DNA from: Sphingomonas sp.
Lineage (GTDB): Bacteria > Pseudomonadota > Alphaproteobacteria > Sphingomonadales > Sphingomonadaceae
Direction of reading: 5' to 3'
Assembly: GCF_019635515.1 (NCBI RefSeq)
Contig: NZ_JAHBZI010000001.1
Span: forward strand, 1,116,001 to 1,180,000
DNA length: 64,000 bases
The notes beneath the pieces are model-generated. The model was given only the letters and a program-made list of their open reading frames with translations, was not told the origin of the DNA and did not search any database. The first letter of the stretch is position 1; each line of letters begins with the position of its first letter. The position numbers were made by a program, and so were the translations under genes. Shown here piece by piece: positions 665 to 57,818 of the stretch.

Positions 665-3600
665 CTAGAAGTTGAAGCGGGCGATCGCCGAGATACGGCG
701 GTCGTTCATGTACCAGCCGCGCGGCACTTCCTTGATCGTGTTCGGGCCGCCCGTGCCGGTGATCACCGCGTTGGTGCGGGTGATCTCGTTGGTCAGGTTC
801 GAGCCCTGGACGCCGACCTTGATCTGCGGAGTGATCGCGAAGAACACCGAAGCGTCAAGCTGGCCGGTCGCCTTGTTGATGATCGGATCGAACGGCGTGA
901 TCACGTCGCGGACGGTGAGCACGAAGTCCGAGCGCCACGAATAAGTGGCACGCATCGAGATCGGACCCCAATCGAAGAACGGAGTGACGTTGACCTGATG
1001 CTTCGACAGACCTTGGAGCGGCAGCAACGCGGTGTTGACCGTGGTCACGCGGCCGGCGGCCACGTCCGGATCGGTCGCCGACAGCGTCGACTGCGGCACA
1101 CCCGACGAGTCCACATAGGTGTAGTTCGCCTGGAGGCCGAGACCCTTGAGCGGACCCGGCAGGAAGTCGAAGGTCTGCTGGTAGCCGATTTCGAAGCCCT
1201 TGATCTTGCCGACCTTGGTCGCGTTGACCGGGGTGGTGACCAGCGCATCGAACGTCGCGCCATTATTGGTGAAGCTCTGGCGTACCGTGTCGTTGGTCAG
1301 AACCCCGTGAAGCTCCTTGTAGAAGCCCGAAAGGGTCAGCTGGCCGACGCTCGAGAAATACCATTCCGCCGTAAGGTCGAAGTTATCGGCCTCGGTGGGC
1401 TTCAGGTACGGATTGCCCGCGGTGAGCGATCCCTGCAGACGGAAGCTGTTGGGGATCAGGTTGCCGCTGGCGTCGACATTCTGCACCACGCCCAGATTGA
1501 CCGGGAAGTAGTTGCGGATAAAGCCGGTCTGCGGCGGCGAGACGCCCTTGAAGTACGCCGCGCGGAACTGCACCCCGCCGCCGACCTCGAACTTCACGTT
1601 CACGCTCGGCAGCCAGTAATCGTACCGCAGCTTCGCGGTCGATGCGACGGTCGCACCGTTGATGAAGTTGCGCGCCGCAGTGCGCGTGGCAGCGTTAAAC
1701 GAGCAGAACGGCTGCACCGTGTCAGGCGGCACCACCGGGGTGGCGCAGACGGTCTCGGTCGGAAACGCCGTGGTATTGACGAACGACTGGAAGCCGCTGG
1801 AGGTACGATCGGTGCGGCTGAAGCGCAGGCCGACATTACCGCTCAGGCGCAGGCCGCGACCGAACTCGGTATCGAACCGGGCCATGGCATAGGCGGCATA
1901 ATTCTGCTCGCGGATCGGGTTGATCTCGTCTTGCAGGAACGGCGTGCCGGCGACAACACCGCACCGGCTGGCAAGTCCATTCCAGCCGGTATTGACGGTG
2001 CGTCCGTCAGCGCAAGTCGTCGTGCCCTGCCATTCGCGAGCGATCAGACCCGCATAGTCGATCATCTGCTGATAGTTGGCGACGGTGTTGCCCGAGTAGA
2101 ACAGGCGTCCCGACCCCGCGAGCGGGTTGGTCACCTTGCCGCGGAAGAAGTTGTCGAACGAGAATGCCTCATAGCCGGTCGGCGCCGTACCCTGGGTGTG
2201 GCCGTTGGCATTGTTGCCATCGACCGGCGTATCGAACCAGACCGGGCCGTTATTGCCCCACTGCTCGGAAAGCACGCCCCAATTGTAGCGCGAGAAGCGC
2301 GAGACCTGATCGCGATCTGCATAGCGCACGCCGGCACGGATCGACTTCAGGAAGTTCGAGTCCGGGAACGAATATTCGAGGTCGAGACGGACGGCGTCGG
2401 AATTGCCGTCGCTCTTCTCGATGTGATCCATCGCGGCGCGATAGAAGCTGTTATACGGGTCGAGGAAGCTGGTGTGACCCGCGCCGTAATAACCCGGATT
2501 CTGCGGGCCACCGACAGCCTGCGCCGTATTGCAGTCATAGTCCGTACCCGGCGGGTTCTGCGAATTCGCCGCGGGACCGTTGCACACCTGCGGCGGCAGG
2601 AACGCAACCGTCGGGAACTTGTCGCCGTTCAGCGCGAGCGATGCGTTCTGGTAGGTCGAGCCCCAGACCGTGTTGTCGAGCAGATCGGTGGTCGAGTTGA
2701 CATGCTGATAATCGAACACCAGGCCGAGACGATCGCTGGCATTCCACTTGAAGTTGAAGCCGTAATCGTCGGTGACGAGCTTCTGCTCCTGATCGCGGCG
2801 GATGTTGTTCGATTGCAGGCCCAGCATCGGCACGCGCGCCGTGCCGCAACCGTCCGCGATGCAGTTCTGGTCACCGCGCCAACCGGTCGGTCCGGTGATG
2901 GTGCCGCTGGTGAACATGCCATCGCTGCCGAATGCCAGCGTCGTGCCGGGAACGCGGCGCGAGTCGCCGTTCGACGAGACGTTGTCGGTCGCGATTTCGA
3001 CGGTGTGCTCGGTCCAGGCCTGGCGCGCATCGGAGCGCAGGAACTGGAACACGGCTTCCATCGACCCGTCGTTGCTGCGCCACTGCGCGGCTGCCGCATA
3101 GCCATAGCGCTTGCGGTCGAACTCCTGGTTGCCGACCACGGCGCCGCGCGGGAAATAGACCTGGCCGGTCTGCGTCGTGCCGCCATTGTCCACCACGTCG
3201 CCGTCCGAATAGAGCGTGCGGATGCGGAAGCTCGACAGCTGGAAGCGGTCGGCGCGGGTCTTGAGCTGCGAATAGGAGACGTTGGCCAGCAAGCCGATCT
3301 CACCGATCCCGGTTTCCCAGCGGTTGCTTACGAGGAACGACGCGGTCGGCGCCCACTTCTTGACGAAGTCGCCATAGTTGGCCTCGATCGAGCCCGCGAC
3401 CACCAGACCCTTCGCATCGAACGGCTTGCGGGTGCGCAGGTTGACCACGCCGGCGATGCCGCCTTCGATGCGGTCCGCCGAGGGCGATTTGAACACGTCG
3501 ACGCCGCCCAGCATTTCCGACGGCACGTCGGAGAAGCTCAGCGAGCGGCCGTTATTGGCGGTGAATGCCTCGCGGCCGTTGAACTCCGAGCGGATATAGG

Positions 3601-3994
3601 TGAGGCCGCGAACCGTGACGCCCGAACCTTCCGCGGTGAAGTGGTCGGGATCGACGCCCGCCGCGAAGCGGTTGATCGACACGCCCGGGATGCGCTGCAG
3701 CGCTTCGGTCACCGAACGATCGGGAAGGGCGCTGATGTCCTCGGCGGTGACCGAGTCGACGATCACGTCCGAATTCTTCTTGAGCGCCTGTGCGCTCTGC
3801 AGCGACTGACGATAGCCCGAAACGACGATCTCGCCGTCGTCTTGCGCGGCTTCCTGACCGGCCGGAGCGTCCTGCGCCCAGGCCGGTGCGGCTACCGCGA
3901 AACATGCCAGGGCGACGGCGGAAACGCCGGCCCGCAGCACGGCGCGCGGCCTGCCAGCGTTGTCAGTTGACTGAATTACATTAAGCTTGCGCAT
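665..3994 (-). CDS. TonB-dependent outer-membrane receptor, glycan-uptake type
   Basis: A 1,109-residue outer-membrane receptor. ATG at 3994 is preferred over TTG at 3997 because GGGGAGGA lies upstream. A signal peptide ends near AWAQ (about residue 40). A TonB-box-like DDGEIVVSGYRQ follows, then a plug domain (about 60-190, with DVFKSPSADRIEGGIAGVVNLRTRKPF) and a long beta-barrel ending in aromatic ARFNF, typical of BamA substrates. The length and the plug match the Caulobacter/Sphingomonas family that imports plant oligosaccharides. An AGCGCT operator lies 23 bp upstream and the divergent operon carries glycoside hydrolases, so the ligand is probably a xylan- or glucan-derived oligosaccharide. 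The substrate is inferred, not shown. Confidence 0.93.
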   Translation of the reverse strand: MRKLNVIQSTDNAGRPRAVLRAGVSAVALACFAVAAPAWAQDAPAGQEAAQDDGEIVVSGYRQSLQSAQALKKNSDVIVDSVTAEDISALPDRSVTEALQRIPGVSINRFAAGVDPDHFTAEGSGVTVRGLTYIRSEFNGREAFTANNGRSLSFSDVPSEMLGGVDVFKSPSADRIEGGIAGVVNLRTRKPFDAKGLVVAGSIEANYGDFVKKWAPTASFLVSNRWETGIGEIGLLANVSYSQLKTRADRFQLSSFRIRTLYSDGDVVDNGGTTQTGQVYFPRGAVVGNQEFDRKRYGYAAAAQWRSNDGSMEAVFQFLRSDARQAWTEHTVEIATDNVSSNGDSRRVPGTTLAFGSDGMFTSGTITGPTGWRGDQNCIADGCGTARVPMLGLQSNNIRRDQEQKLVTDDYGFNFKWNASDRLGLVFDYQHVNSTTDLLDNTVWGSTYQNASLALNGDKFPTVAFLPPQVCNGPAANSQNPPGTDYDCNTAQAVGGPQNPGYYGAGHTSFLDPYNSFYRAAMDHIEKSDGNSDAVRLDLEYSFPDSNFLKSIRAGVRYADRDQVSRFSRYNWGVLSEQWGNNGPVWFDTPVDGNNANGHTQGTAPTGYEAFSFDNFFRGKVTNPLAGSGRLFYSGNTVANYQQMIDYAGLIAREWQGTTTCADGRTVNTGWNGLASRCGVVAGTPFLQDEINPIREQNYAAYAMARFDTEFGRGLRLSGNVGLRFSRTDRTSSGFQSFVNTTAFPTETVCATPVVPPDTVQPFCSFNAATRTAARNFINGATVASTAKLRYDYWLPSVNVKFEVGGGVQFRAAYFKGVSPPQTGFIRNYFPVNLGVVQNVDASGNLIPNSFRLQGSLTAGNPYLKPTEADNFDLTAEWYFSSVGQLTLSGFYKELHGVLTNDTVRQSFTNNGATFDALVTTPVNATKVGKIKGFEIGYQQTFDFLPGPLKGLGLQANYTYVDSSGVPQSTLSATDPDVAAGRVTTVNTALLPLQGLSKHQVNVTPFFDWGPISMRATYSWRSDFVLTVRDVITPFDPIINKATGQLDASVFFAITPQIKVGVQGSNLTNEITRTNAVITGTGGPNTIKEVPRGWYMNDRRISAIARFNF

Positions 3995-4016
3995 CAAGCT
4001 GTCCTCCCCTTAGAAA

Positions 4017-4030
4017 TGTTAGCGCTATCA
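4017..4030. promoter_or_regulatory. LacI-type operator 1, receptor promoter
   Basis: TGTTAGCGCTATCA, a near-perfect palindrome centred on AGCGCT, 23 bp upstream of the TonB receptor start. It matches four other sites in the window (consensus TGNTAGCGCTANCA). Confidence 0.8.
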
Positions 4031-4229: not shown

Positions 4230-4243
4230 GGGGAGCGCTAACA
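4230..4243. promoter_or_regulatory. LacI-type operator 2, halogenase-GH operon
   Basis: GGGGAGCGCTAACA. The right half (CGCTAACA) fits the consensus and the left half is degenerate. It lies 28 bp upstream of the chosen ATG of the first halogenase, a position suited to repression. Confidence 0.65.
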
Positions 4244-4271
4244 TTTGGACTTGGGAGAGGGGCATGACCCG

Positions 4272-5768
4272 ATGTTGGTGAAGCGCGTTCTGGTGGTCGG
4301 CGGGGGCACGGCCGGCTGGATGACGGCGGCCGCGCTGTCCAATAAATTCGGGAATTCACCGCTTGAGATTCGCCTGATCGAATCGGCGGAAATCGGAACC
4401 GTCGGGGTCGGCGAGGCGACCGTTCCCCATATCCATCATTACAATTCGACCCTCGGCTTCGACGAGGCCGATTTCATGGTCCGCACCAAGGCGACGTTCA
4501 AGCTCGGGGTCGAGTTCGTGAACTGGGGGCGAATCGGCAATTCCTACATTCATCCCTTCGGTGCTTATGGTGAGGATTTCGGTGGCGTGCCGTTCCATCA
4601 GCATTGGGTGCGGATGCGCGACCAGCCGGGTGTCGGCGATTTCGAGGCCTTCTCATTGCCGATCCACGCCGCGCGGATGGGTCGCTTCCAGCACCCTGAT
4701 CGCGATCCGTCGTCGCTGCTCAACACCTATAACTACGCCTATCAGTTCGACGCGAGCCTCTATGCTCGCTTCCTGCGCGAATATTCCGAGGCGCGGGGCG
4801 TCGTCCGACAGGAGGGCAAAGTCGTCGATGTCGCACTCAATGGCGAGACCGGTTTTGTCGAATCGGTGGCGCTCGACAGCGGCGAGCGAATCGAGGCGGA
4901 TCTGTTCGTCGATTGCTCGGGATTCCGCGGGCTGCTGATCGAGCAGACGCTGAAGACCGGATATGAGGAATGGACGCATTGGCTGCCTTGCGACCGCGCG
5001 ATCGCTATTCCCTGTCCCAATGATGGGCCGGTGATGCCGCTCACCCGCTCGACCGCACAGCAATCGGGTTGGGTGTGGAAGATTCCGCTCCAGCATCGCT
5101 GCGGCAACGGCCATGTCTATTCGAGCAGCTCCATTTCCGACGACGAAGCGCTGGAGGTGTTGCTGGGGGCGATCGGCGCGCCGCCGCTCGCCGATCCCAA
5201 CAAGCTCCGCTTCGTCACCGGCAAGCGCAAGAAGCAATGGGTCGGCAATGTCGTCGCGATCGGGCTGTCCTCGGGTTTCCTCGAGCCGCTCGAATCGACC
5301 AGCATCCATCTGATCCAGCTCGCGATTGGCCGGCTGCTCGATTTCTTCCCCACCGGCGAATGGGACCCGCTCGACGCCGAGGAATTCAACCGCGTGATGG
5401 TGCTCGAATATGAGCGTGTCCGCGACTTCCTGATCCTCCACTATAACGCCACCGAGCGCGATGATTCGGACTTCTGGAACTATTGCCGGACCATGGATCT
5501 GCCCGAGTCGCTCAAATACAAGATCGACCTGTTCCGCGAGCGCGGCGTGGTCGTGAATTACCGCGACGGCATGTTCCTGGAGCCTAGCTGGCTGGCGGTG
5601 TATCTCGGGCAGAACGTCATGCCCCGCGCTCACGACCCGCTTTCCGAACGGCTTTCCGATGCGGATCTGATCGCGGCGATGGCCGATCTGCGCGCGCGCT
5701 ATGCCGCCGCCGCGGTGGCGATGCCCACGCACGAGGCGCTGCTTGCCGGAATGGCGGCGGCCGCCTGA
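4272..5768 (+). CDS. Flavin-dependent tryptophan-halogenase family protein 1
   Basis: FAD-dependent halogenase-fold protein of 498 residues. It has the dinucleotide motif GGGTAGWM near the N terminus, GVGEATVP at 46-52, the catalytic-type lysine K77 (RTKATFKLG), the flavin-halogenase signature WVWKIP at 267-272, and E341-S342 in LEPLEST. These correspond to K79 and E346-S347 of PrnA as I recall them, so the halogenating site looks intact. ATG 4272 is preferred over TTG 4245 because GGGAGAGGGG precedes it and the operator then stays outside the gene. It is the first gene of an operon of four halogenases plus GH43 and GH9. The natural substrate is unknown, and no flavin reductase lies nearby. 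Confidence 0.92.
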   Translation: MLVKRVLVVGGGTAGWMTAAALSNKFGNSPLEIRLIESAEIGTVGVGEATVPHIHHYNSTLGFDEADFMVRTKATFKLGVEFVNWGRIGNSYIHPFGAYGEDFGGVPFHQHWVRMRDQPGVGDFEAFSLPIHAARMGRFQHPDRDPSSLLNTYNYAYQFDASLYARFLREYSEARGVVRQEGKVVDVALNGETGFVESVALDSGERIEADLFVDCSGFRGLLIEQTLKTGYEEWTHWLPCDRAIAIPCPNDGPVMPLTRSTAQQSGWVWKIPLQHRCGNGHVYSSSSISDDEALEVLLGAIGAPPLADPNKLRFVTGKRKKQWVGNVVAIGLSSGFLEPLESTSIHLIQLAIGRLLDFFPTGEWDPLDAEEFNRVMVLEYERVRDFLILHYNATERDDSDFWNYCRTMDLPESLKYKIDLFRERGVVVNYRDGMFLEPSWLAVYLGQNVMPRAHDPLSERLSDADLIAAMADLRARYAAAAVAMPTHEALLAGMAAAA

Positions 5769-7204
5769 TGGGATCGATCCGGCGCGTTGTGATCCTTGGC
5801 GGCGGCGTGGCCGGCTGGATGAGTGCGCTCGCGCTCAGCCGTGCATTGGAAGGTAGCGGCATCGCGCTCGACCTGGTCGAAATCGGTGGCCCCGATCATA
5901 GCATCGGTCCGTTCGGCCCCGGCGAAGCGACGCTGCCAGCATTCCACCTTTTCCTGGGCGATTATGGCATCGACGAGGATGCCTTGCTCCGCGCTGCGCG
6001 TGGCACCTTCGCCCTCGGCGCGGCCTTTTCAGGCTGGGGGGGGCAGCAATCGGCGTGGTTCCTGCCCTTTGGCGACATTGGCGCGGCGATGGGTCCGGTC
6101 GGGTTCCCGCCGCTCGTCGCTAAGCTCCGCGCCGCCGGGCACCCGGTGCGGCCCACGGATTTCTCGCTCGCCGCGGTCGCCGCCGCGGCGGGTCGCTTCA
6201 CGCGCCCCAGCGACGATCCGCGCTCGGTGCTGTCGAGCTACGGCTATGGCCTGCACCTCGACAAGGCGGCGCTGGCGGCGGTCTGTCGCGGGCTGGCTCA
6301 AGGTGTGACGGGCCATCCATCGCCATTCGTTCGGGCGATCCGTGCCGGGAACGGTCATGTCACGGCGCTGGAACTCGAAAGCGGCGCGCAGGTCGCGGGC
6401 GATCTCTTCCTCGATTGCTCCGGCCCCGCCGCCTTGCTCAGCCAGGATCATGGTTTCGACAGCTGGTCCGCATGGCTTGCCTGCGATCGCGTCATCGAAG
6501 GCGCTTCTGCGCAAGATGGGGTGCCGCCGCCCTATACTCACGCTGCCGCGCATCCGGCCGGCTGGCGGCGCAGCGTGCCGCTGCTCGGCGGCCCCAGCGA
6601 GGCGACGCTGTTCGCCTCCGCGCACCACACCGACAGCGCCGCCACAGCGATCCATCAGGGCCGCCGCGTGCGCGCCTGGCAGGGCAATGTCGTCGCCATC
6701 GGTGCCGCCGCGGCGCTGATCGAGCCGCTCTACGGCCACAACCTTCAACTCGCGCACCGCGCGATCCAGCGCTTGGTCGCCTTGTTCCCCAATCACGCCG
6801 AGGGGCCGGAGGCGGCCGAGTATAATCGTATCGCCGGCGAGGAAGCCGATCGCGTCCGCGACTTCGTCATCGCCCATTACAAGACCAACGGGCGCATTGG
6901 CGAACCCTTCTGGGACGCGGCGCGGGCGATGGCGGTGCCCGATACGCTGCAATACAAGCTCGATCTCTACGCCAGCCGCGGCCGCATGCCGATGTATGAC
7001 GAGGAATTGTTCGATCGCGGCGAATGGATCGCCGCGCTGGATGGCCAGGGAGTGCATCCGCGCCGCTATGATGCACTCGCCGATACCGTGCCCGAACCCG
7101 CTATAATCCAGCACGTCACCCGGCTGCGCGAACTGATCGTCGATGCGGCCAAGGCGATGCCCAATCACGGCGTGACGCTGGCGCAGATCGGAGGCGCGGT
7201 ATGA
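5768..7204 (+). CDS. Halogenase-fold protein 2, catalytic residues lost
   Basis: A 478-residue paralogue of its neighbours; its start overlaps the preceding stop by one base (TGATG). It keeps the FAD-binding GGGVAGWM and PGEATLP motifs. It differs at every halogenase-defining site: alanine (A82 in GTFALG) replaces the catalytic lysine, WRRSVP replaces WxWxIP, and IEPLYGH (Y322-G323) replaces LEPLEST, removing the Glu-Ser pair. It also lacks the QHR-GNG stretch of the others. It probably binds FAD but cannot halogenate by the known mechanism; a scaffold role or another flavin reaction are alternatives. The frame is intact, including an eight-G run near 6037, so it is not an obvious pseudogene. 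Confidence 0.88.
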   Translation: MGSIRRVVILGGGVAGWMSALALSRALEGSGIALDLVEIGGPDHSIGPFGPGEATLPAFHLFLGDYGIDEDALLRAARGTFALGAAFSGWGGQQSAWFLPFGDIGAAMGPVGFPPLVAKLRAAGHPVRPTDFSLAAVAAAAGRFTRPSDDPRSVLSSYGYGLHLDKAALAAVCRGLAQGVTGHPSPFVRAIRAGNGHVTALELESGAQVAGDLFLDCSGPAALLSQDHGFDSWSAWLACDRVIEGASAQDGVPPPYTHAAAHPAGWRRSVPLLGGPSEATLFASAHHTDSAATAIHQGRRVRAWQGNVVAIGAAAALIEPLYGHNLQLAHRAIQRLVALFPNHAEGPEAAEYNRIAGEEADRVRDFVIAHYKTNGRIGEPFWDAARAMAVPDTLQYKLDLYASRGRMPMYDEELFDRGEWIAALDGQGVHPRRYDALADTVPEPAIIQHVTRLRELIVDAAKAMPNHGVTLAQIGGAV

Positions 7205-8721
7205 CCGCGCTCCAGCCGATCCGCAGCATCGTCATCGTCGGCGGCGGCACCGCCGGCTGGATGGCGGCGGCCGCCTTTTCGCGCCTGACGCGCACTGGCG
7301 TGAAGGTCACCCTGGTTGAATCCGATGCGATCGCCACCGTCGGCGTCGGCGAGGCGACGATCCCGCCGATCCGCAATTTCAACGGCCTGCTCGGCCTCGA
7401 TGAGAACGACTTCCTCGCCAGGACGCAGGGCACGCTCAAGCTCGGCATCGATTTCGTCGGCTGGCGGTATGAGGGCGACCGCTATTTCCACCCCTTCGGC
7501 GAGTTCGGCTTCGATATAGAGGGCGTGAAGTTCCACCAATTCTGGCGCAAGCTCCACGAAAGCGGCCTGGCCTCGGGCATTGGCGACTATAATCTCTGCG
7601 CGCGCGCCATGGATCTTGGCCGCTATCAGCCGCCTTCGAGCGATCCCGCCTCGATCCTGTCGCGCATGGCCTATGCCTATCAGTTCGATGCTTCGCTCTA
7701 TGCGGGGTATCTGCGCGAATATGCCGAGAAGCGCGGTGTGGTCCGCCTCGAAGGCAAGGTCGTCGAGGTGCCGGTGCGCGGCGAGGACGGGCATATCGAG
7801 GCGGTAGTGCTGGAAGGGGATCGCCGGGTCGAAGGCGAGCTCTTCATCGACTGCACCGGTTTTCGTGCGCTGCTGATCGAACAGACGCTCGGCGCCGGCT
7901 GGGAAAGCTGGGCGCACTGGCTGCAATGCGACCGCGCCGTCGCGGTGCCCTGCGAATCCGCCCCCGATGGCACGATCACGCCGTATACCCGCTGCACCGC
8001 GCACAGCGCCGGATGGCAGTGGCGGGTCCCGCTCCAGCACCGGATCGGCAACGGTTACGTCTATTGCAGCGGCGACATTTCAGACGATGCCGCGCGGGAG
8101 ACTCTGCTCGCCAATCTCGATGGCGCAGCCTTGCGCGATCCCTTCATCCTGAAGTTCGAAGCCGGACGGCGGAAGAAGGCGTGGCACAAAAACTGCGTCG
8201 CATTGGGCTTGTCATCGGGCTTCCTCGAACCGCTCGAATCGACCAGCATCCATCTGATCCAGGCCGGAATCTCCAAACTTATGGCGCTGCTGCCCGATGT
8301 CGGCTTCAGTGCCATCGAGCGCGACGAATATAACCGCCTGACCGATATCCAGATGGAGCAGGTCCGCGACTTCATCATCCTCCACTATCACGCCAATGCG
8401 CGGAAGGATGGCGATCTCTGGCGCCGTGTCCGCGAGATGGAAATCCCCGGCACGCTGACCCGCAAGCTCGACCTGTTCCGGGGTCGTGGCCGCCTGTTCC
8501 GCTATGAGGATGAGCTCTTCGCCGAATCCTCCTGGATCGCGGTGATGTTGGGGCAGGGGATCTACCCCGCCGGCTGGGATCCGCTGGCTGACACGATTGA
8601 TCCCGTGCAAATCCGCAACACGCTCGACCGTATCAAGGCGCTGTTCGCCCAGACCGCCCAATCGATGCCGCGCCATGAGGAATGGCTCGCGCGCAACGCA
8701 CCCGCCCGGAGTTTCGCATGA
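7201..8721 (+). CDS. Flavin-dependent tryptophan-halogenase family protein 3
   Basis: A 506-residue halogenase whose ATG overlaps the preceding TGA (ATGA). It shows the FAD motif GGGTAGWM, GVGEATIP, lysine K80 (GTLKLGIDF), WQWRVP at 272-277 (Val for Ile in the signature) and LEPLE-ST with E346-S347. All residues needed for flavin-dependent halogenation are therefore present. It resembles proteins 1 and 4 more than protein 2, which suggests serial duplication with one copy diverging. It is translationally coupled within the operon. Oligosaccharide-linked aromatics or indoles are possible substrates, but this is speculation. Confidence 0.92.
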   Translation: MTALQPIRSIVIVGGGTAGWMAAAAFSRLTRTGVKVTLVESDAIATVGVGEATIPPIRNFNGLLGLDENDFLARTQGTLKLGIDFVGWRYEGDRYFHPFGEFGFDIEGVKFHQFWRKLHESGLASGIGDYNLCARAMDLGRYQPPSSDPASILSRMAYAYQFDASLYAGYLREYAEKRGVVRLEGKVVEVPVRGEDGHIEAVVLEGDRRVEGELFIDCTGFRALLIEQTLGAGWESWAHWLQCDRAVAVPCESAPDGTITPYTRCTAHSAGWQWRVPLQHRIGNGYVYCSGDISDDAARETLLANLDGAALRDPFILKFEAGRRKKAWHKNCVALGLSSGFLEPLESTSIHLIQAGISKLMALLPDVGFSAIERDEYNRLTDIQMEQVRDFIILHYHANARKDGDLWRRVREMEIPGTLTRKLDLFRGRGRLFRYEDELFAESSWIAVMLGQGIYPAGWDPLADTIDPVQIRNTLDRIKALFAQTAQSMPRHEEWLARNAPARSFA

Positions 8722-10220
8722 CCGACAATCGCATCCGCAGCATCGTCATCGTCGGCGGGGGCACCGCGGGCTGGATGGCGGCGGCGACGCTGTCGCGGAT
8801 CCTCACCACGGAATATGCCAGCATCACCCTGATCGAATCCGATGCGATCGGCACGATCGGCGTCGGCGAGGCGACGATCCCGCAGATGGCGACCTTCAAT
8901 CGCATGCTCGGGCTCGACGAAGACCAGTTCATGCGCGAGACCCAGGGCACCTTCAAGCTCGGTATCAAGTTCATCGATTGGGCACGCAAGGGGCATATCT
9001 ACTATCACCCATTTGGTAAATATGGCTTGGATATGAAGGGTGTGTCATTCCATGCCTATTTCATGCGCCTTCACCAGATGGGAGAAGCTCCGGATATCGA
9101 TCAATGGTCGCTCCAGGCGATGGCGAGCCGCGACAATCGTTTCATGCGCCCGATCGATGCGGGCAATTCGCCGCTCAGCGAAATCCCTTACGCCTTCCAT
9201 TTCGATGCCGGTCTCTACGCCAAGTTTCTGCGCAATTATTCGGAAGAACGGCGTGTTGTGCGCCGCGAAGGCATGATCAACGAGGTCAGACTGCGCGGCG
9301 AGGACGGCTTCGTTCAGTCGGTCGTCCTCCAGGACGGTAGCGAGATCGAAGGCGATCTGTTCATCGATTGCTCGGGCTTCCGCGGGCTGATCATCGAGCA
9401 GACGCTCAAGGCGGGCTATACCGACTGGTCGAAATACCTGCCGTGCAACCGCGCCATCGCGGTGCCATGCGAAAGCATCGACGAATGGACGCCCTATACC
9501 CAATCGACCGCGCACAGCGCCGGCTGGCAATGGCGCATCCCGCTCCAGCACCGCATCGGCAACGGCCACGTCTTCTGCTCCGAATTCATGAGCGATGACG
9601 AGGCGACCAGCATCCTGCTCGCCAATCTCGACGGCAAGCCGCTCGCCGATCCGCGCACCGTCCCGTTCATGACCGGCCACCGCAATAAATTATGGGTCAA
9701 GAACTGCGTCGCGCTCGGCCTGTCGGGCGGGTTCATCGAGCCGCTCGAATCCACCGCGATCTGGCTGGTCCAGTCTGGCCTGTCGCGCTTCCTGACGATG
9801 TTCCCGGATCGCAATTTCAATCAGGCCGACATCGATCGCTACAACCGGATCATGACCACTGATTATGAGGAAATCCGCGACTTCCTCGTCCTTCACTACA
9901 ACGCCACCGAGCGCGACGATTCGCCATTCTGGGACTATTGCCGCAATATGGAGATTCCGGAGCGTTTGGCGGAAAAGATGCGGGTGTTCCGCACGCATGG
10001 CCGCTGTTTTCGCGAGAATGAGGAATTGTTCAATGATACCAGTTGGTTCGCGGTCATGCACGGCCAGCTGATGACCTCGCAATCCTATGATCCCGTCGCC
10101 GACATCATGAGCCTGGAGGAGACCCGCTCGCGCCTCGACCACATCCGCGAAGCGATCGCCAATTCGGCCGATTACATGCCCAAGCACAAGGACTTTGTCC
10201 GCGAGCATTGCGCGGCATGA
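8718..10220 (+). CDS. Flavin-dependent tryptophan-halogenase family protein 4
   Basis: A 500-residue halogenase. ATG at 8718 is chosen for its ATGA overlap with the previous gene rather than the longer reading from 8682. It carries GGGTAGWM, GVGEATIP, K80 (GTFKLGIKF), WQWRIP at 270-275 (exact WxWxIP) and IEPLEST with E344-S345. The catalytic set is complete. It is the last halogenase of the operon, and its stop overlaps the start of the GH43 gene, tying halogenase and glycoside-hydrolase translation together. No signal peptide is visible, so the enzyme should be cytoplasmic whereas the hydrolases downstream are exported. Confidence 0.92.
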   Translation: MTDNRIRSIVIVGGGTAGWMAAATLSRILTTEYASITLIESDAIGTIGVGEATIPQMATFNRMLGLDEDQFMRETQGTFKLGIKFIDWARKGHIYYHPFGKYGLDMKGVSFHAYFMRLHQMGEAPDIDQWSLQAMASRDNRFMRPIDAGNSPLSEIPYAFHFDAGLYAKFLRNYSEERRVVRREGMINEVRLRGEDGFVQSVVLQDGSEIEGDLFIDCSGFRGLIIEQTLKAGYTDWSKYLPCNRAIAVPCESIDEWTPYTQSTAHSAGWQWRIPLQHRIGNGHVFCSEFMSDDEATSILLANLDGKPLADPRTVPFMTGHRNKLWVKNCVALGLSGGFIEPLESTAIWLVQSGLSRFLTMFPDRNFNQADIDRYNRIMTTDYEEIRDFLVLHYNATERDDSPFWDYCRNMEIPERLAEKMRVFRTHGRCFRENEELFNDTSWFAVMHGQLMTSQSYDPVADIMSLEETRSRLDHIREAIANSADYMPKHKDFVREHCAA

Positions 10221-11908
10221 AGGCGCTCCTCGCCTCGCTGGCGCTTTTGCTCGCCACGCCCGCCACGGCGCAGCCGGTCGCGCGCTTCGACTGGTTCCAT
10301 TATCAGGGTGCCGACGCGATCGACGCGCTGCCGCTCGCGCCGAACGAATACCGCAACCCGATCCTGCGCGGCTTCTATCCCGATCCCTCGGTCACGCGTG
10401 TCGGGGACGATTTCTACCTCGTCACCTCCACCTTCAGCTATTTCCCCGGCATCCCGGTCTTCCATTCGAAGAACCTCGTGGACTGGACCCAGATCGGCAA
10501 CGCCATCGACCGGACGGACATGCTCGATTTCAAGCAGCTCGGCCTGTCGCGCGGCGTGTTCGCGCCGACCATCCAAGCCAAGGATGGTGTCTTCTACATC
10601 CTCAACACCTGCGTCGATTGCGGCGACAATTTCGTGATCACCGCCAAGAACCCCGCCGGCCCCTGGTCCGATCCGATATGGCTGCCCGCGCTCAATGGCG
10701 GGATCGATCCGTCGCTGTTCTTCGACGAGGATGGCCGCACCTGGATTCTCAACAACGGCCCGCCCGAGGGCACGCCCGAATATCAGGGTCACCGCGCGAT
10801 CTGGATCCAGGAGTTCGATCTCAAGACGCTCAAGTCGTTCGGCCCGCGCACCGTGCTGGTCAATGGCGGTGTCGATTTCTCGAAGAAGCCGATCTGGATC
10901 GAAGGCCCGCATATCTTCCGCAAGGACGGCTGGTATTATCTCAGCTGCGCCGAGGGCGGCACCGCCGAGGGGCATAGCCAGGTCATCCTGCGCTCGAAAA
11001 ACGTCACCGGCCCGTTCCTGCCCAATCCGAACAATCCGGTGCTGACCCAGCGCGACCTGCCGATGGACCGCGATCACCGCATCACCTCCGCCGGCCACGC
11101 CCAGCTCGTCACCACGCCCGACGGCAAATGGTGGGCGACCTTCCTGGCGGTGCGTCCTTACGCCGGCGATTTCTACACCACCGGCCGCGAGACATTCCTG
11201 CTGCCGGTCGAATGGGAGAACGGCTGGCCGGTCATCACCCGCCCGGGCCAGGCGATCCCGCTCACCCATGCGCGTCCGGCGCTGCCGGCCGCCGCGGAGC
11301 CACCCGTGCCGCTGAACGGCGCCTTCACCTATACCGAGCGCTTCGGCGGCAAGCCGCTCGGCCCCGAATGGATGATGCTACGCAATCCGCGCGCGCCCTG
11401 GTACGAGGTCGACAAATACGGCCTGAACCTCACCGCGCGGCCGGTCGGTCTCGGCGACAATGGCAACCCGTCATTCCTTGTCCGCCGCCAGCAGCACACC
11501 AGCGCCAGCGCCACCACCGCGCTGCGTTTCACCCCGCAAAAAGACGGCGACCGCGCTGGTCTCGCGATATTCCAGAACGACGATTATTGGATGTCCGTCG
11601 GTTTGAAGCGGGCTGGTGGGCAGTTGCTTCTCACCGTCGATCGCCGCGACGGTCCGAACGATCCGAAGCTTGGCAAGACGGTCTTTCAGGTCGTCAATCC
11701 GCGCATCGGCGAGAATGCGCTGGAACTGAGGATCGCGGTCGAAAAGAACGTCTATCATTTCAGCTACAGCGTCGATCACGGTGCCGCCAACTATACCCCG
11801 AGGGTCTGGCGTCCGCTCGGCGCGATCGAGACCGACAGCCTTACCACCAGGACCGCTGGCGGGTTCGTCGGCTCGGTCTTCGGCCTCTTCGCTGCCACCG
11901 GAGAATAG
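10217..11908 (+). CDS. GH43 beta-xylosidase / alpha-L-arabinofuranosidase, exported
   Basis: A 563-residue glycoside hydrolase family 43 enzyme with a signal peptide ending at about TATAQ (19). The five-bladed propeller shows the three acidic residues of the family: base D56 in FYPDPSV, D164 in GGIDPSLFF, and acid E229 in IWIEGPHIF. A C-terminal jelly-roll domain (about 350-560) matches the beta-xylosidase C-terminal concanavalin-like domain, as in the XynB-like subfamily. It would release xylose or arabinose from xylo-oligosaccharides in the periplasm. ATG 10217 overlaps the preceding halogenase stop and is preferred over TTG 10208. Exact specificity cannot be read from sequence. Confidence 0.92.
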   Translation: MKALLASLALLLATPATAQPVARFDWFHYQGADAIDALPLAPNEYRNPILRGFYPDPSVTRVGDDFYLVTSTFSYFPGIPVFHSKNLVDWTQIGNAIDRTDMLDFKQLGLSRGVFAPTIQAKDGVFYILNTCVDCGDNFVITAKNPAGPWSDPIWLPALNGGIDPSLFFDEDGRTWILNNGPPEGTPEYQGHRAIWIQEFDLKTLKSFGPRTVLVNGGVDFSKKPIWIEGPHIFRKDGWYYLSCAEGGTAEGHSQVILRSKNVTGPFLPNPNNPVLTQRDLPMDRDHRITSAGHAQLVTTPDGKWWATFLAVRPYAGDFYTTGRETFLLPVEWENGWPVITRPGQAIPLTHARPALPAAAEPPVPLNGAFTYTERFGGKPLGPEWMMLRNPRAPWYEVDKYGLNLTARPVGLGDNGNPSFLVRRQQHTSASATTALRFTPQKDGDRAGLAIFQNDDYWMSVGLKRAGGQLLLTVDRRDGPNDPKLGKTVFQVVNPRIGENALELRIAVEKNVYHFSYSVDHGAANYTPRVWRPLGAIETDSLTTRTAGGFVGSVFGLFAATGE

Positions 11909-11911
11909 ACG

Positions 11912-13726
11912 ATGCGCCTGCTACTCCTCGCAGCCCCCTTGCTTGCCGGCGCGATGATTCCGCCGCCGCTGCCTATCCATCTCAACCGGCTCGGCTTCGA
12001 GCCCGGCGATGCCAAGATCGCGATCGTCCATGGCTGGGACGTGCCGTATGACTGGAAGCTGGTCGATGCTGCGGGCAAGACGCTGCTGAGCGGCAAGGCT
12101 GTGTTGTACGGCAAGGATGAAGCCTCCGGCGCGTCCAACCTCCAGCGCGTCGATTTCAGCGCCTATCGCGGTGAGGGCGAGGGCTATCGGCTGATCGTCG
12201 CGGGCGCGCCCAGCGAGCCGTTCGCGATCCGCCGCAATCTCTACGCTCCGCTCGCCAGGGACGCGCTCGCCTTCTTCTATCATCAGCGCGCCGGCGTGCC
12301 GATCGAAGCGCGCTTCGTCGGCCAGAAATGGGCGCGCCCCGCCGGGCATGCGCGCGAACTCGCCAAATGCTTCACCGGAAAGGATGAGCGTGGCACCGAA
12401 TGGCCCGCCTGCGGCTACGCGCGGGATGTGCGCGGCGGCTGGTACGACGCCGGCGACCACGGCAAATATGTCGTCAATGGCGGCATCTCGCTGTGGACGC
12501 TGCTCAACGCCTATGAGCGCCGCCCGAACGCCTTTCCGGACAAGTCGTTGAAGATTCCCGAAGCGGGCAATGGCGCCAGCGATCTGCTCGACGAAGCGCG
12601 CTACGAGATGGAATGGATGCTGCGGATGCAATTGCCCGAGGGGCAGCATGTCCGTGTCCCCGTCGGCCCGTTCAAGCCGCTCGCGCCCGGCCAGAATCCC
12701 TGGACCGCCGCGCCCGCGGATTTCGTCGAAATCGATGCCGGCGGCATGGCGCTCCAGAAGGTCGCAGACCGCAACTGGACCAAGCTGCCGATGCCGCCGC
12801 AGGACGACCCCGAGGAACGCCTGCTATACCCGCCCACCACTGCCGCGACGCTCAACCTCGCCGCCGTCGCCGCCCAATGCGCGCGGTTATGGAAGAATGT
12901 GGACGATGCTTTTGCTGCGCGCTGCCTGGGTGCAGCAAAAAGCGCCTGGGGTGCAGCAAAGCGCAATCCGGAGGTGCTGGCGACCAACAGCTTCACCGGC
13001 AGCGGCGGCTATGGCGACCGCGATGTCTCAGACGAATTCTACTGGGCTGCGGCGGAGCTTCTCGTCACCACCGGTGCGGATGAATTTGCGCAAGTGGTGC
13101 AGCATTCTCGGCATTTCCACGAGGATGTACGAGAGCCGTCATGGCCCGGCACTGCCGCGCTCGGCACGATGCTGCTGGCGACCCGCCCAGCCTCGCTTCC
13201 CGCAGCCGAGGTCAAGCGCCTCCAGTCCGCGGTTATCGCCGCCGCCGATCGCTTCCTCAACGACGCTGGCGGCAACGGTTATGCGATTCCCTACATCGCC
13301 AGGGACTATCCCTGGGGTTCCAATTCCAGCCTGCTCAACCGCGCGATGATCCTCGCCACCGCGCATGATCTGAGCGGCGACGCCAAATATCGTGCCGGCG
13401 TGATCGCGGCGCTCGATTACGTCCTGGGCCGCAACCCGATGAACGTGTCCTATGTCAGCGGCTACGGCGCCCGCTCGATGCAGAACCCGCACCACCGCTT
13501 CTGGGCGCATTCGCTCGACAAGAAACTGCCCGGGCCTCCCCCCGGTGTGCTCTCCGGCGGCCCCAACTCGACCAACATGTCGGACGATATCGCGAAGGCG
13601 ATGAAGGGCCGATGCGCGCCGCAGATGTGCTGGGCAGACGACATCCACGCCTTCGCGCTGAACGAGGTGGCGATCAACTGGAACGCGCCGCTGTTCTGGG
13701 TCGCGGCTTGGGCCGATAGCGACTGA
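11912..13726 (+). CDS. GH9 glycoside hydrolase with CelD N-terminal Ig domain
   Basis: A 604-residue family 9 enzyme, three bases after GH43 and preceded by GGAGAA. A short hydrophobic leader is followed by an Ig-like CelD_N domain (about 20-105, PIHLNRLGFEPGDAK) and an (alpha/alpha)6 catalytic domain. Catalytic features are WYDAGDHGKY with D179/D182 and the C-terminal proton donor E585 in LNEVAINWNAP. The NPMNVSYVSGYG and NPHHR motifs are also typical. GH9 members act on beta-1,4-glucans and some on xyloglucan or mixed-linkage glucan; here it sits with xylose genes, so a hemicellulose substrate is plausible. The product is likely periplasmic or secreted. Confidence 0.92.
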   Translation: MRLLLLAAPLLAGAMIPPPLPIHLNRLGFEPGDAKIAIVHGWDVPYDWKLVDAAGKTLLSGKAVLYGKDEASGASNLQRVDFSAYRGEGEGYRLIVAGAPSEPFAIRRNLYAPLARDALAFFYHQRAGVPIEARFVGQKWARPAGHARELAKCFTGKDERGTEWPACGYARDVRGGWYDAGDHGKYVVNGGISLWTLLNAYERRPNAFPDKSLKIPEAGNGASDLLDEARYEMEWMLRMQLPEGQHVRVPVGPFKPLAPGQNPWTAAPADFVEIDAGGMALQKVADRNWTKLPMPPQDDPEERLLYPPTTAATLNLAAVAAQCARLWKNVDDAFAARCLGAAKSAWGAAKRNPEVLATNSFTGSGGYGDRDVSDEFYWAAAELLVTTGADEFAQVVQHSRHFHEDVREPSWPGTAALGTMLLATRPASLPAAEVKRLQSAVIAAADRFLNDAGGNGYAIPYIARDYPWGSNSSLLNRAMILATAHDLSGDAKYRAGVIAALDYVLGRNPMNVSYVSGYGARSMQNPHHRFWAHSLDKKLPGPPPGVLSGGPNSTNMSDDIAKAMKGRCAPQMCWADDIHAFALNEVAINWNAPLFWVAAWADSD

Positions 13727-13883: not shown

Positions 13884-16280
13884 TCACTTCACCGTAAGCG
13901 TCACGCTCTTCAGCTTCACCGAATCCGGCCCGGACGAGATCGTGAACGTCCCCGGCTCCACCACCCGCTTCATATCGACATTCCACAGCGACAGGTCGCG
14001 CGGGGTCAGCTCGAACTGGACGGTCTTCTTCTCGCCCGGCGCCAGCGTCACCCGCTCGAAGCGCTTCAGTTCCTTCACCGGCCGGGTCACGCTGGCCAGA
14101 TCGTCACGCACATAGAGCTGAACCACTTCGTCGCCCGCGCGCGTGCCGGTGTTGGTCACCTCGACACTCACCTTGACGTTGTTCAGCCGCCCGATCACCG
14201 GCGTCGCCAGCACGGGCGCGCCGATGTCGAAAGTCGTGTAGGAAAGCCCGTAGCCGAACGGATAGAGCGGGCTGGTCTCGGCGAAGAGATAGCCGCGCCG
14301 CGCGCTCGGCTTGTGGTTGTAGAACATCGGCAACTGGCCAACATCGCGGGCGATCGTCACCGGCAGCTTGCCGCCAGGATTGGCGCGGCCGAACACCACG
14401 TCCGCCACCGCGTTCCCGGTCTCCTGTCCGAGATACCAGCCCTCGATCAGTGCCGGCGCGTTCTCCGCCAGATATTTCACCGCCAGCGGCCGGCCGTTGA
14501 GGAGCAGCACCACCACCGGCTTGCCGAGCGCGAGCAGCTCCTTGGCGAGCTGATTCTGCGGCCCGATCAGCTCGAGCGAATTGCGGTCGCCCAGATGGTT
14601 GTCGGCCCATGCCTCGCGGCTCAATTGCTCGTTGTCGCCCAGCACCAGGAAGATCACATCGGCGTTCTTCGCCACGTCCACCGCCTCGGCGCGCAGCTTG
14701 TCGTTGGTGGCGTCATCGACCAGCTCGACCGCGTCCTCGGCCCAGACGCGGCTCTTGGTCAGCTTCACCCCCTCGGCGAAATCGACCTCGAACTTGCCCT
14801 TGCCCTCGGCCTTCAGCCCTTCGAGCACGCTGACCACATGGCGGGGAATGTCCGAATAGCCGCCGATTGGCGTGTCGTTGGCATGCGTGCCGATCACCGC
14901 CATCCGCTTGATCTTGCTTGCGTCGAGCGGGAGCAGCCCGCCGTCATTCTTGAGCAGCACCATCGCCTCGCGCGCGGCTTCGCGGGCGAGCGCGATCGCG
15001 TCGGGCGTCTCGGTCTTCTTCGCCGCCGCCTTGGCATCGACATAGGGATTTTCGAACAGCCCCGCGTTGAACTTGAGCTTGAGGATGCGGCGCACCGATT
15101 CATCGATCTGCGCCTCGCTCACCCGGCCTTCGCGGACGAGCTTGGGCAGCAGCGCATAGGCCTCGCCGTCCGGGGTCTCGAAATCGACCGTCGCGTCGAG
15201 CGCGCGCACGGCCGCGTCCTCGAGATTGTCGAACATCTTGTGGCGGGTCATCAGCTCGCGGATCGCGAAATAGTCGCTGAGCAGCACGCCCTTGAAGCCC
15301 CATTCCTGGCGCAGCACGTCGTGCAGCAGCCAGCGATTGGCGTGGCTGGGGATGCCGTCGATCTCGTTGTACGAGGGCATCACCGACATCACCGGCAATT
15401 CGGTCACCGCGCGTTCGAACGGCGGGAAGAAATTCTCGCGCAGGGTCCGCTCGGAGACGGTCGCCGGGCCGATGTTGGTGCCGCTCTCGGGCGCGCCGTG
15501 GCCGGTCATGTGCTTGAGCGTGACATAGACCTTGTCGGGCGCCAGCGGCAGCGTCGTGCCCTGGAAACCGCGGATCGCGGCCAGGCCCATCTCGCCGACC
15601 AGATACGGATCCTCGCCATAGGTCTCCTCGATCCGGCCCCAGCGCGGATCGCGGGCGATATCGACCACCGGCGCCAGCGCCAGATTGGCGCCGCGCGCGC
15701 GCATCTCGCGCGCTGCGACCGAGAAGATCTTCTCCTGCAGCTTGGGGTTCCAGGTAGAGGCGAGGGCGATCGCCTGCGGGAAGCTCGTCGCCCCCGGCGC
15801 GACATAGCCGTGCAGCGCTTCCTCATGCATGATCAGCGGAATGCCGAGCCGCGTCTTCTCCACCGCCCATTTCTGCGCGGCGTTGATGTAGCGCGCGGTA
15901 TCTTCCGGCCCGCGATTGACCGTGCCCGCCGCGGCGCCCGCGGCCGGCCCCTGGGTGATCGCGCGGCGGTCATAGGGGCGCGAGATCTGGCCGAGGCCGT
16001 TGGGGAAGTTCACGCTCGCCTTGGCCGCGTCGAATTCGCCCTCGGGGGTCTGGATCTTGTCCTTGGCCAGCCAGACCGCGACCATCTGCTGAACCTTTTC
16101 CTCCAGCGTCATCCGCTTGAGCAGATCCTCGACACGCGCATCGATCGGCTGCGAGGCATCCTTGTACAGCGGCTTCTCGGCCTTGCTCTGCGCGAAAGCG
16201 GGCGCCGCCGCGATGGGCGTGAGCGCGGTCGCGGCCAAAGCGGCGAGGGCGGTCACGGACAAGCGGTTGAAAAGACGCAT
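13884..16280 (-). CDS. GH3 beta-glucosidase / beta-xylosidase, periplasmic
   Basis: A 798-residue family 3 glycoside hydrolase. A signal peptide ends near PAFAQ (31). The N-terminal barrel carries K256-H257 (LKHMTGHG) and the nucleophile D336 in GVLLSDYFAI. The alpha/beta sandwich follows (VLLKNDGGLLPL, LGDNEQLSREAW), and a fibronectin III-like domain closes the protein (about 700-790). AGGAGAGAG precedes the ATG. It would remove glucose or xylose from non-reducing ends of oligosaccharides imported through the receptor. It is divergent from lacI and shares operator 3 with it. The substrate (glucoside or xyloside) cannot be decided from sequence. Confidence 0.93.
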   Translation of the reverse strand: MRLFNRLSVTALAALAATALTPIAAAPAFAQSKAEKPLYKDASQPIDARVEDLLKRMTLEEKVQQMVAVWLAKDKIQTPEGEFDAAKASVNFPNGLGQISRPYDRRAITQGPAAGAAAGTVNRGPEDTARYINAAQKWAVEKTRLGIPLIMHEEALHGYVAPGATSFPQAIALASTWNPKLQEKIFSVAAREMRARGANLALAPVVDIARDPRWGRIEETYGEDPYLVGEMGLAAIRGFQGTTLPLAPDKVYVTLKHMTGHGAPESGTNIGPATVSERTLRENFFPPFERAVTELPVMSVMPSYNEIDGIPSHANRWLLHDVLRQEWGFKGVLLSDYFAIRELMTRHKMFDNLEDAAVRALDATVDFETPDGEAYALLPKLVREGRVSEAQIDESVRRILKLKFNAGLFENPYVDAKAAAKKTETPDAIALAREAAREAMVLLKNDGGLLPLDASKIKRMAVIGTHANDTPIGGYSDIPRHVVSVLEGLKAEGKGKFEVDFAEGVKLTKSRVWAEDAVELVDDATNDKLRAEAVDVAKNADVIFLVLGDNEQLSREAWADNHLGDRNSLELIGPQNQLAKELLALGKPVVVLLLNGRPLAVKYLAENAPALIEGWYLGQETGNAVADVVFGRANPGGKLPVTIARDVGQLPMFYNHKPSARRGYLFAETSPLYPFGYGLSYTTFDIGAPVLATPVIGRLNNVKVSVEVTNTGTRAGDEVVQLYVRDDLASVTRPVKELKRFERVTLAPGEKKTVQFELTPRDLSLWNVDMKRVVEPGTFTISSGPDSVKLKSVTLTVK

Positions 16281-16324
16281 TTCTCTCTCCTGATGCGCAG
16301 CGCTGCGGCGCTGTCTTGCAATAT

Positions 16325-16338
16325 TGGTAGCGCTATCA
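16325..16338. promoter_or_regulatory. LacI-type operator 3, between GH3 and lacI
   Basis: TGGTAGCGCTATCA, 45 bp from the GH3 start and 87 bp from the regulator start. A single site could repress GH3 and autoregulate the regulator. Confidence 0.8.
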
Positions 16339-16381
16339 ACTATAGATGCGGACTCGTTACGGTCAACTGTGGACGGAGATT

Positions 16382-16403
16382 GTTACGGGATTGCATCCGT
16401 AAC
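16382..16403. promoter_or_regulatory. Dyad upstream of the LacI-type gene
   Basis: GTTACGG (16382-16388) and CCGTAAC (16397-16403) form a 7-bp inverted repeat 22 bp before the regulator ATG. Its role is unknown; it differs from the AGCGCT operators. Confidence 0.4.
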
Positions 16404-16425
16404 ATCGCGGGCCTATCCCTCCGCC

Positions 16426-17526
16426 ATGAGCAGACCCAGCCGCAGAAGCAGAGGCACGGTAACCGTGCAGGACGTCGCCCGGGCAGCAGGCGTATCGGCG
16501 ATGACGGTCTCCCGCGTCGTGAACGGCGGCGCCAATGTCCGCGAGACCACCCGCGTCGCAGTGCTCGAAGCGATCTCGAAGCTCAATTATTCGCCCAACA
16601 GCGCCGCGCGCAGCCTGGCCGCCGGTGAGGCGACCCAGATCGGGTTGCTCTATTCGAACCCGTCGGCCGCCTATCTTTCGCAATTCCTGATCGGTGCGCT
16701 CGCCGCCGCGCGCAAGGCCGGCTGCCACCTGGTCCTCGAATCCTGCGAAGGCGAACGTGCCGACGAACAGGCCGAAGCGACGCGCCAGTTCGTCGCCACC
16801 TCGGTCGAGGGCGTGATCCTGCCGCCGCCGCTGTCGGAGGCCGCGCCGGTTCGCGCCGAACTCGAAGCTGCCGGTATCCCCTGGGTGTCGGTGGCGATGG
16901 GACTCCCGCCCGCGCGCAGCCTCAACGTCCGCATCGACGATTTCGCCGCCGCCGCCGCGATGACCCGGCATCTCATCGATCTCGGCCACACCCGGATCGG
17001 CTTCATCCGTGGCAACCCCAACCAGACCTCGTCGGCCGAGCGCTATCGCGGCTTCGTCTCGGCGCTCGAAGACGCCGGGCTCGACGTTAAGGCGATGCCG
17101 GTCGAGCAGGGCTATTTCACCTTCCGCTCGGGCATCGTCGCTACCGAGCGGCTGCTTGACCGCGCCGATCCGCCGAGCGCGATCTTCGCCTCGAACGACG
17201 ATATGGCCGCGGCTGCGGTAGGGGTCGCGCATCGGCGCGGGCTGCATGTGCCGCAGGATCTCAGCATCGTTGGCTTTGACGATACTTCGCTCGCCACCAC
17301 CATCTGGCCCGAACTCACCACCGTGTCGCAGCCGATCGCGGCGATGGCCGAGTCCGCGCTCAATCTGTTGCTCGCCCGTCTGCGCGAACGGCGCGGCGCC
17401 GATAGCGGCAAGCTGGAAGAGCAGGTGCTCGATCACGAACTGATCGTCCGCGAATCTTCCGGCCCGCCGCGCGCCGTGGGAGGGTCGGCCAGGCCCGCCG
17501 CGAGCAAGGCGGCCAAGCGACGCTGA
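16426..17526 (+). CDS. LacI-family transcriptional regulator of the sugar locus
   Basis: A 366-residue LacI/GalR repressor. ATG 16426 (MSRPSRRSRG) is preferred over 16324 because the longer reading runs across the operator. The helix-turn-helix is TVQDVARAAGVSAMTVSRVVNG (about 12-33), with a hinge ending NYSPNSAARSLA. A periplasmic-binding-like sensor domain follows (GLLYSNPSAAYLSQ to VGFDDTSLATTIWPELTTV). The palindromic AGCGCT sites found at five local promoters fit the usual LacI-family central-CG operator, so this protein is the likely binder. The inducer could be xylose, xylonate or an oligosaccharide. The Lys/Arg-rich C-terminal tail (about 340-366) is unusual in length. Confidence 0.93.
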   Translation: MSRPSRRSRGTVTVQDVARAAGVSAMTVSRVVNGGANVRETTRVAVLEAISKLNYSPNSAARSLAAGEATQIGLLYSNPSAAYLSQFLIGALAAARKAGCHLVLESCEGERADEQAEATRQFVATSVEGVILPPPLSEAAPVRAELEAAGIPWVSVAMGLPPARSLNVRIDDFAAAAAMTRHLIDLGHTRIGFIRGNPNQTSSAERYRGFVSALEDAGLDVKAMPVEQGYFTFRSGIVATERLLDRADPPSAIFASNDDMAAAAVGVAHRRGLHVPQDLSIVGFDDTSLATTIWPELTTVSQPIAAMAESALNLLLARLRERRGADSGKLEEQVLDHELIVRESSGPPRAVGGSARPAASKAAKRR

Positions 17527-17572: not shown

Positions 17573-17609
17573 CGCCGCAAGAATCGCGGCGGCAAGGAGG
17601 GGAAGTTTG

Positions 17610-25496: not shown

Positions 25497-25510
25497 TGAT
25501 AGCGCTACCA
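25497..25510. promoter_or_regulatory. LacI-type operator 5, xylXBC
   Basis: TGATAGCGCTACCA, palindromic around AGCGCT, 23 bp upstream of the xylX start; the same distance as operator 1 from its gene. Confidence 0.8.
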
Positions 25511-55297: not shown

Positions 55298-55307
55298 GAT
55301 CACGCCG

Positions 55308-57806: not shown

Positions 57807-57818
57807 GAGGCGGTCCCC

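Follow-up and report, generated by a model that had tools for sequence, protein, structure and literature searches.

Loci that combine a TonB-dependent receptor with carbohydrate genes, and regulons for xylose use, are known in Xanthomonas, Caulobacter and sphingomonads. Flavin-dependent halogenases encoded beside TonB receptors are also widespread in Proteobacteria, and show weak bromination of indole in vitro. We know of no natural substrate for any of these TonB-linked enzymes.

BrvH, one of the closest described members, forms dimers, and its authors liken its open active site to that of the peptide halogenase MibH. Its gene adjoins a second halogenase gene, and the enzyme is inactive when its catalytic Lys is mutated to Ala (PMC5945002). 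For BrvH, Xcc4156 and the halogenase of structure 9LUQ, no dead partner is described in the literature of this type consulted for comparison. Outside this family, the deoxyhypusine synthase of trypanosomatids offers a precedent in which a dead paralogue within a hetero-oligomer raises activity about 3000-fold (PMC3663545).

The window analysed here, a stretch of 64,000 nucleotides from a Sphingomonas sp., carries a locus with the following features:

1-588, + strand: DUF6445 gene, beginning left of the window
665-3994, - strand: TonB-dependent receptor (TIGR01782, TonB-Xanth-Caul; 697 bits, over the cut-off), divergent to the operon
4017-4030, + strand: putative LacI-type operator TGTTAGCGCTATCA, between the TonB receptor and H1
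4234-4243, + strand: second putative operator half-site AGCGCTAACA, adjoining H1
4272-5768, + strand: H1, PF04820 flavin-dependent halogenase of the H1 clade, with Lys, WxWxIP and Glu intact
5768-7204, + strand: H2, PF04820 paralogue directly behind H1, catalytically dead by sequence
7201-8721, + strand: H3, PF04820 halogenase, catalytic residues intact
8718-10220, + strand: H4, PF04820 halogenase, catalytic residues intact
10217-11908, + strand: GH43 of beta-xylosidase type with GH43_C2 (Pfam), signal-peptide-like N-terminus
11912-13726, + strand: GH9 with CelD_N domain (Pfam), signal-peptide-like N-terminus
13884-16280, - strand: GH3, whose best NCBIfam matches are beta-xylosidase models, below their cut-offs; N-terminus also signal-peptide-like
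16324-17526, + strand: LacI-family regulator, probable XylR-like repressor (profile match)
17607-19025, + strand: XylE-like sugar/H+ symporter (profile match)
19173-20948, + strand: IlvD/Edd-type dehydratase, probable xylonate dehydratase (PRK13017, over the cut-off)
22641-23528, - strand: SMP-30 lactonase, probable xylonolactonase
23528-24313, - strand: D-xylose 1-dehydrogenase XylB (NF053674, over the cut-off)
24353-25474, - strand: FAA-hydrolase-family protein (XylX-like)

Like the known TonB-receptor and xylose loci, this one brings together a receptor, a LacI-type operator, xylan hydrolases, XylE, XylB and xylonate dehydratase. Unlike them, it contains a halogenase quartet, a second member that appears dead, and direct overlaps with glycoside hydrolase genes. 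We regard it as a xylan/xylose regulon in which a four-gene halogenase module is coupled to exported hydrolases, with H1 and H2 forming a hetero-oligomer, H1 acting as the catalytic subunit and the target lying in the cytosol, a reading whose chances we put slightly above even.

H1, H2, H3, H4, GH43 and GH9 are six open reading frames that all run in one direction on the + strand. H1 and H2 meet at TGATG with a 1-bp overlap, ATGA gives a 4-bp overlap at each of H2/H3, H3/H4 and H4/GH43, and a gap of 3 bp separates GH43 from GH9. The initial annotation had described such a run of overlapping or 3-bp-spaced genes, and this was borne out for all six frames and their junctions. Its word "fused" was inexact, as the reading frames overlap and the proteins are separate, and its count of four halogenases does not translate into four working enzymes by sequence, H2 being without the catalytic residues. 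The most likely start of H1 is ATG 4272, an alternative TTG at 4245 abutting the operator half-site; that of H4 was corrected to ATG 8718 (not 8682), and GH43 starts at ATG 10217. H1-H4 have no signal peptide, their N-termini beginning at the flavin-binding Rossmann strand.

By family and catalytic residues, H1, H3 and H4 are predicted flavin-dependent halogenases. They match PF04820 over its full length (633, 625 and 648 bits, respectively, against a cut-off of 21) and keep GxGxxG, the catalytic Lys (K79 in PrnA, K83 in BrvH), WxWxIP and the Glu corresponding to E346 of PrnA; in H3 the WxWxIP motif reads WQWRVP. All three match BrvH (6FRL), Xcc4156 (6Y1W) and 9LUQ over their full length (471-515 bits) and share with them the Lys, WxWxIP and Glu. 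In a tree, however, these three structures fall outside the H1-H4 clades, within which there is no solved structure. The same genome has a second halogenase locus (L058:5872-10667, at about 2.243-2.248 Mb of G000:C1), where two intact PF04820 genes stand with SapC, Cupin_8, LacI and TonB receptor genes; one of these halogenases groups with Xcc4156.

H2 is the weakest of the four PF04820 proteins, at 352 bits against 625-648 for the others. Its catalytic Lys is replaced by Ala (A82, FALG in place of FKLG), GWRRSVP stands where GWxWxIP is expected, the catalytic Glu has become Tyr (EPLYGH in place of EPLEST), and about 19 residues are deleted relative to H1, H3 and H4. Orthologues at 82% (G206), 60% (G195) and 46% identity (G011, from another genus) show the same losses, except that the G011 protein has Glu at the aligned position. 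Lacking both catalytic residues and WxWxIP, H2 is predicted not to be a working halogenase. It nonetheless belongs to the PF04820 fold family and, judging from its AF2 model (pLDDT 94.3; closest PDB match BrvH, TM 0.93), would keep the halogenase fold. Its dN/dS against G206 (0.115) lies beside those of H1 (0.107), H3 (0.118) and H4 (0.134), which points to purifying selection rather than decay. A sequencing error or a decaying pseudogene was rejected, as 52 genomes have the frame uninterrupted and selection on it is purifying.

The loss extends to all 52 H2 proteins: four keep the Lys, four keep the Glu and none keeps both, whereas both are present in 54/54 H1 and 158/159 other halogenases. 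Even strongly degenerate H2s exceed the Pfam cut-off for PF04820. In four loci (L065, L067 and L069 of Caulobacter, and L098 of Oceanicaulis) the H2 protein has kept the Lys and lost WxWxIP and the Glu, an intermediate state.

H2 could alternatively have become another kind of enzyme, an oxygenase or oxidase that depends on flavin, uses the halogenase fold without a halide site and works in series with H1. The retained fold, the purifying selection and the first glycine of the flavin motif, present in 52/52 H2, would all fit, and the PF04820-like QhpG and the maturases LodB and GoxB (weak profile matches) provide examples of non-halogenating chemistry. However, only 20/52 H2 have the complete GxGxxG (54/54 in H1), about 6/52 have the GEAT glutamate, and the lost Lys and Glu are replaced by many different residues with no consistent polar substitute. 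Because residue loss is so variable, a non-catalytic role fits better, and we consider an oxygenase or oxidase unlikely.

The reading of H2 as a partner of H1 draws on the distribution of the two genes. When an H1-type alignment was run against 84,980 species genomes, 80 loci emerged, which together with 20 family-survey regions yielded a tree of 268 PF04820 proteins. It contains 54 H1-clade genes, counting the window and after removal of one duplicate contig, from six or more proteobacterial orders (Sphingomonadales, Caulobacterales, Rhodospirillales, Parvularculales, Maricaulales, Hyphomonadales and Steroidobacterales). Support is about 93-95 for the H1 clade and 93 for the H2 clade. A degenerate PF04820 gene lies directly 3' of H1 on the same strand in 52/54 cases, compared with 0/158 behind other intact halogenases, which were gathered with the same H1 query and are not a random sample. 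Every degenerate gene with upstream sequence stands behind an H1, and the junction is -4 bp in 19 of the 44 measurable cases. This distribution indicates that the H1-H2 pair is an ancient, obligate unit.

Both exceptions are neighbouring H1-clade genes in one locus, L081. There, the position-2 gene (L081:11455-13053) has Lys, WxWxIP and Glu all in place and branches as the sister of all H2s with support of 99, so H2 would descend from an enzyme in the same gene order. This paralogue is likely a relic of the ancestral active state and well suited as an enzyme for comparison. A search with an H2 profile, whose scores separate H2 from intact paralogues at the top of the list only, added two clear H2-type cases (G382 and G477), each located about 12-15 bp behind another halogenase. 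Literature searches for tryptophan halogenases linked to TonB, xylan, carbohydrate utilization or SapC returned no relevant full text, subscription journals being mostly outside the search. The conserved, apparently dead halogenase partner is the main new result, although an earlier description may exist elsewhere.

These patterns bear on an account along the lines of the initial annotation, in which the locus encodes four ordinary, independent halogenases acting on small cytosolic aromatics and H2 is a relaxed duplicate kept by operon position only. All catalytic residues are kept in H1, H3 and H4, and in vitro indole is a substrate of their relatives, both BrvH and the Xanthomonas enzymes (PMC5945002, PMC7336383). 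The indole activity of BrvH is low, however, and the authors question whether indole is its substrate in nature (PMC5945002). A relaxed duplicate would often be lost, whereas selection on H2 is purifying and 52/54 loci from several orders retain it; moreover, the locus showed no gene for aromatic import or for a feruloyl esterase. This makes the account quite unlikely. Tandem co-inheritance alone could keep H1 and H2 together, but leaves unexplained why a dead copy accompanies the H1 clade only.

The setting of the paired halogenases is a predicted complete glucuronoxylan/xylose system, which continues to the left of the window (locus L140) with Cupin_8, GH67, an MR/MLE enolase-type dehydratase and GH10. 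The Cupin_8 gene (JmjC-like, PF13621) occupies L140:6792-8589; Cupin_8, and in some loci DUF6445, also accompany the receptor-halogenase module in L041, L042, L060, L065, L084 and L108. Within the window, a 276-aa ORF beside the xylonate-type dehydratase (20951-21781) has no Pfam or NCBIfam match, and three tandem MacB/FtsX-type permease paralogues (821-835 aa) lie on one strand at 52832-60326.

Putative LacI-type operators connect these genes. Upstream of H1, AGCGCTAACATTT at 4234-4246 matches 4014-4026 exactly in inverted orientation, and the two form a perfect 13-nt inverted repeat with its arms 207 nt apart. The exact operator form TGNTAGCGCTANCA occurs six times in the 3.54-Mb genome, with four copies within 29 kb at the locus, at the promoters of GH67, receptor/H1, GH3/LacI and the FAA-hydrolase/XylB operon. 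The copy at 16325 overlaps the start of the LacI-family gene, and that at 25497-25510 precedes the FAA-hydrolase-family gene. The two-site arrangement is kept in the orthologous intergenic regions of five loci (L041, L042, L060, L062 and L064) and is therefore not due to chance, while variants of TGTTAGCGCTATCA occur in L040, L063 and L066. A regulon drawn from one-mismatch matches was dropped, as a reversed control pattern had more of them (54 vs 17 per strand); the regulon call therefore rests on exact sites only.

Hydrolase, transporter and catabolic promoters thus have putative operators in common, as expected for membership in a LacI-repressed xylan/xylose locus. The LacI-type operator that the initial annotation had placed ahead of the halogenase operon is present as an exact site kept in relatives. 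Its interpretation is supported in part: at the sequence level, the halogenases would share an operon and a LacI regulon with the xylan/xylose pathway, in line with its proposal that they belong to the same response as glycan uptake.

Neighbouring genes were identified by direct profile searches, as six-frame BLAST pooling was swamped by antisense shadow ORFs. GH43 and/or GH9 follow the quartet directly in seven loci (L040, L041, L042, L047, L056, L060 and L062), all from Sphingomonadaceae, and in L129 a Cupin_8 gene lies between quartet and hydrolase. In Caulobacter, Niveispirillum and others, the quartet adjoins the receptor with no GH following. The halogenase-hydrolase junction, for which a search in other genomes had been suggested, was thus recovered in part of one family and not in these other genera, indicating that direct coupling is a Sphingomonadaceae add-on. 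It had been taken as the key feature of the locus; the stable companions are instead the TonB receptor, found near 44/49 H1 loci, and the H1-H2 pair.

Compared with 39 loci that have other halogenases only, the 49 H1 loci more often contain GH10 (16/49 vs 0/39, p=3e-5, although related loci within one family are not independent and such p-values overstate the evidence), the XylE-like transporter (10/49 vs 0/39), GH43 (11/49 vs 1/39) and Cupin_8 (24/49 vs 6/39). Among the H1 loci, L087, L091 and L106 are without xylan genes, so many H1 loci have a xylan setting, but not all.

The recurrence of receptor and Cupin_8 genes would also suit a module that targets Trp or Tyr in one of the exported proteins of the locus, for example the TonB receptor or a GH, ahead of export; the hydroxylase-like Cupin_8 protein would belong to the same pathway. 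The open, peptide-halogenase-like active site of BrvH fits this. In the H1-linked receptors, Trp occupies 5 of the 48 columns whose conservation is subfamily-specific, compared with 1 of the 73 that are conserved generally, the controls being four unlinked receptors from the window's own genome. With only these four controls, and with sugar stacking an equally good reason for conserved Trp in a glycan receptor, this is a lead rather than evidence; to our knowledge no halogenated or oxidised receptor residue has been found. Modification of an exported protein is hence improbable.

In the hetero-oligomer reading that we favour, the two operators that separate the TonB receptor from H1 would be occupied by a LacI-type repressor, presumably the one encoded at the locus. 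Xylose or a xylo-oligosaccharide would be the signal that relieves repression, and the receptor and six-gene operon would be made together. The coupled cistrons would then supply H1 and H2 in a 1:1 ratio, and the two would assemble into a hetero-oligomer that replaces the homodimer known for BrvH. H1 would be the sole catalyst of the pair, carrying out the flavin chemistry, while H2 may position, activate or recruit the substrate; H3 and H4 would be two further intact enzymes travelling with them.

Since H1-H4 are without signal peptides and glycan breakdown is exported, the substrate must be sought in the cytosol, and this location argues against direct action on the imported glycan. The annotated genes of the locus included no feruloyl esterase, and the initial suggestion that ferulate-like or indolic groups come in with the glycan is unsupported. 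As the target we weakly favour an aromatic side chain that is peptide- or protein-bound: an open BrvH-type active site, by analogy, and Cupin_8 make a protein target thinkable. The more specific proposal that H1 and H2 form an obligate active/dead heterocomplex in several orders, modifying a glycan-uptake protein or peptide rather than a small metabolite, is doubtful.

The deoxyhypusine synthase resembles this proposal in how it works, with an active subunit and a dead paralogue (PMC3663545), although its fold and reaction are unrelated and the H1-H2 complex is itself predicted. The tandem tryptophan halogenases KtzQ and KtzR resemble H1-H2 as two PF04820 enzymes in one pathway (cited in PMC8269204), but both are active and belong to an antibiotic cluster, whereas one member of H1-H2 appears dead.

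That a dead paralogue is kept beside one halogenase clade suggests that the real enzyme may have escaped assays of one protein at a time. If co-expression of H1 and H2 works, the role of a large orphan enzyme class would become experimentally accessible. If true, the H1-H2 pair would tie this orphan halogenase class to growth on plant xylan.
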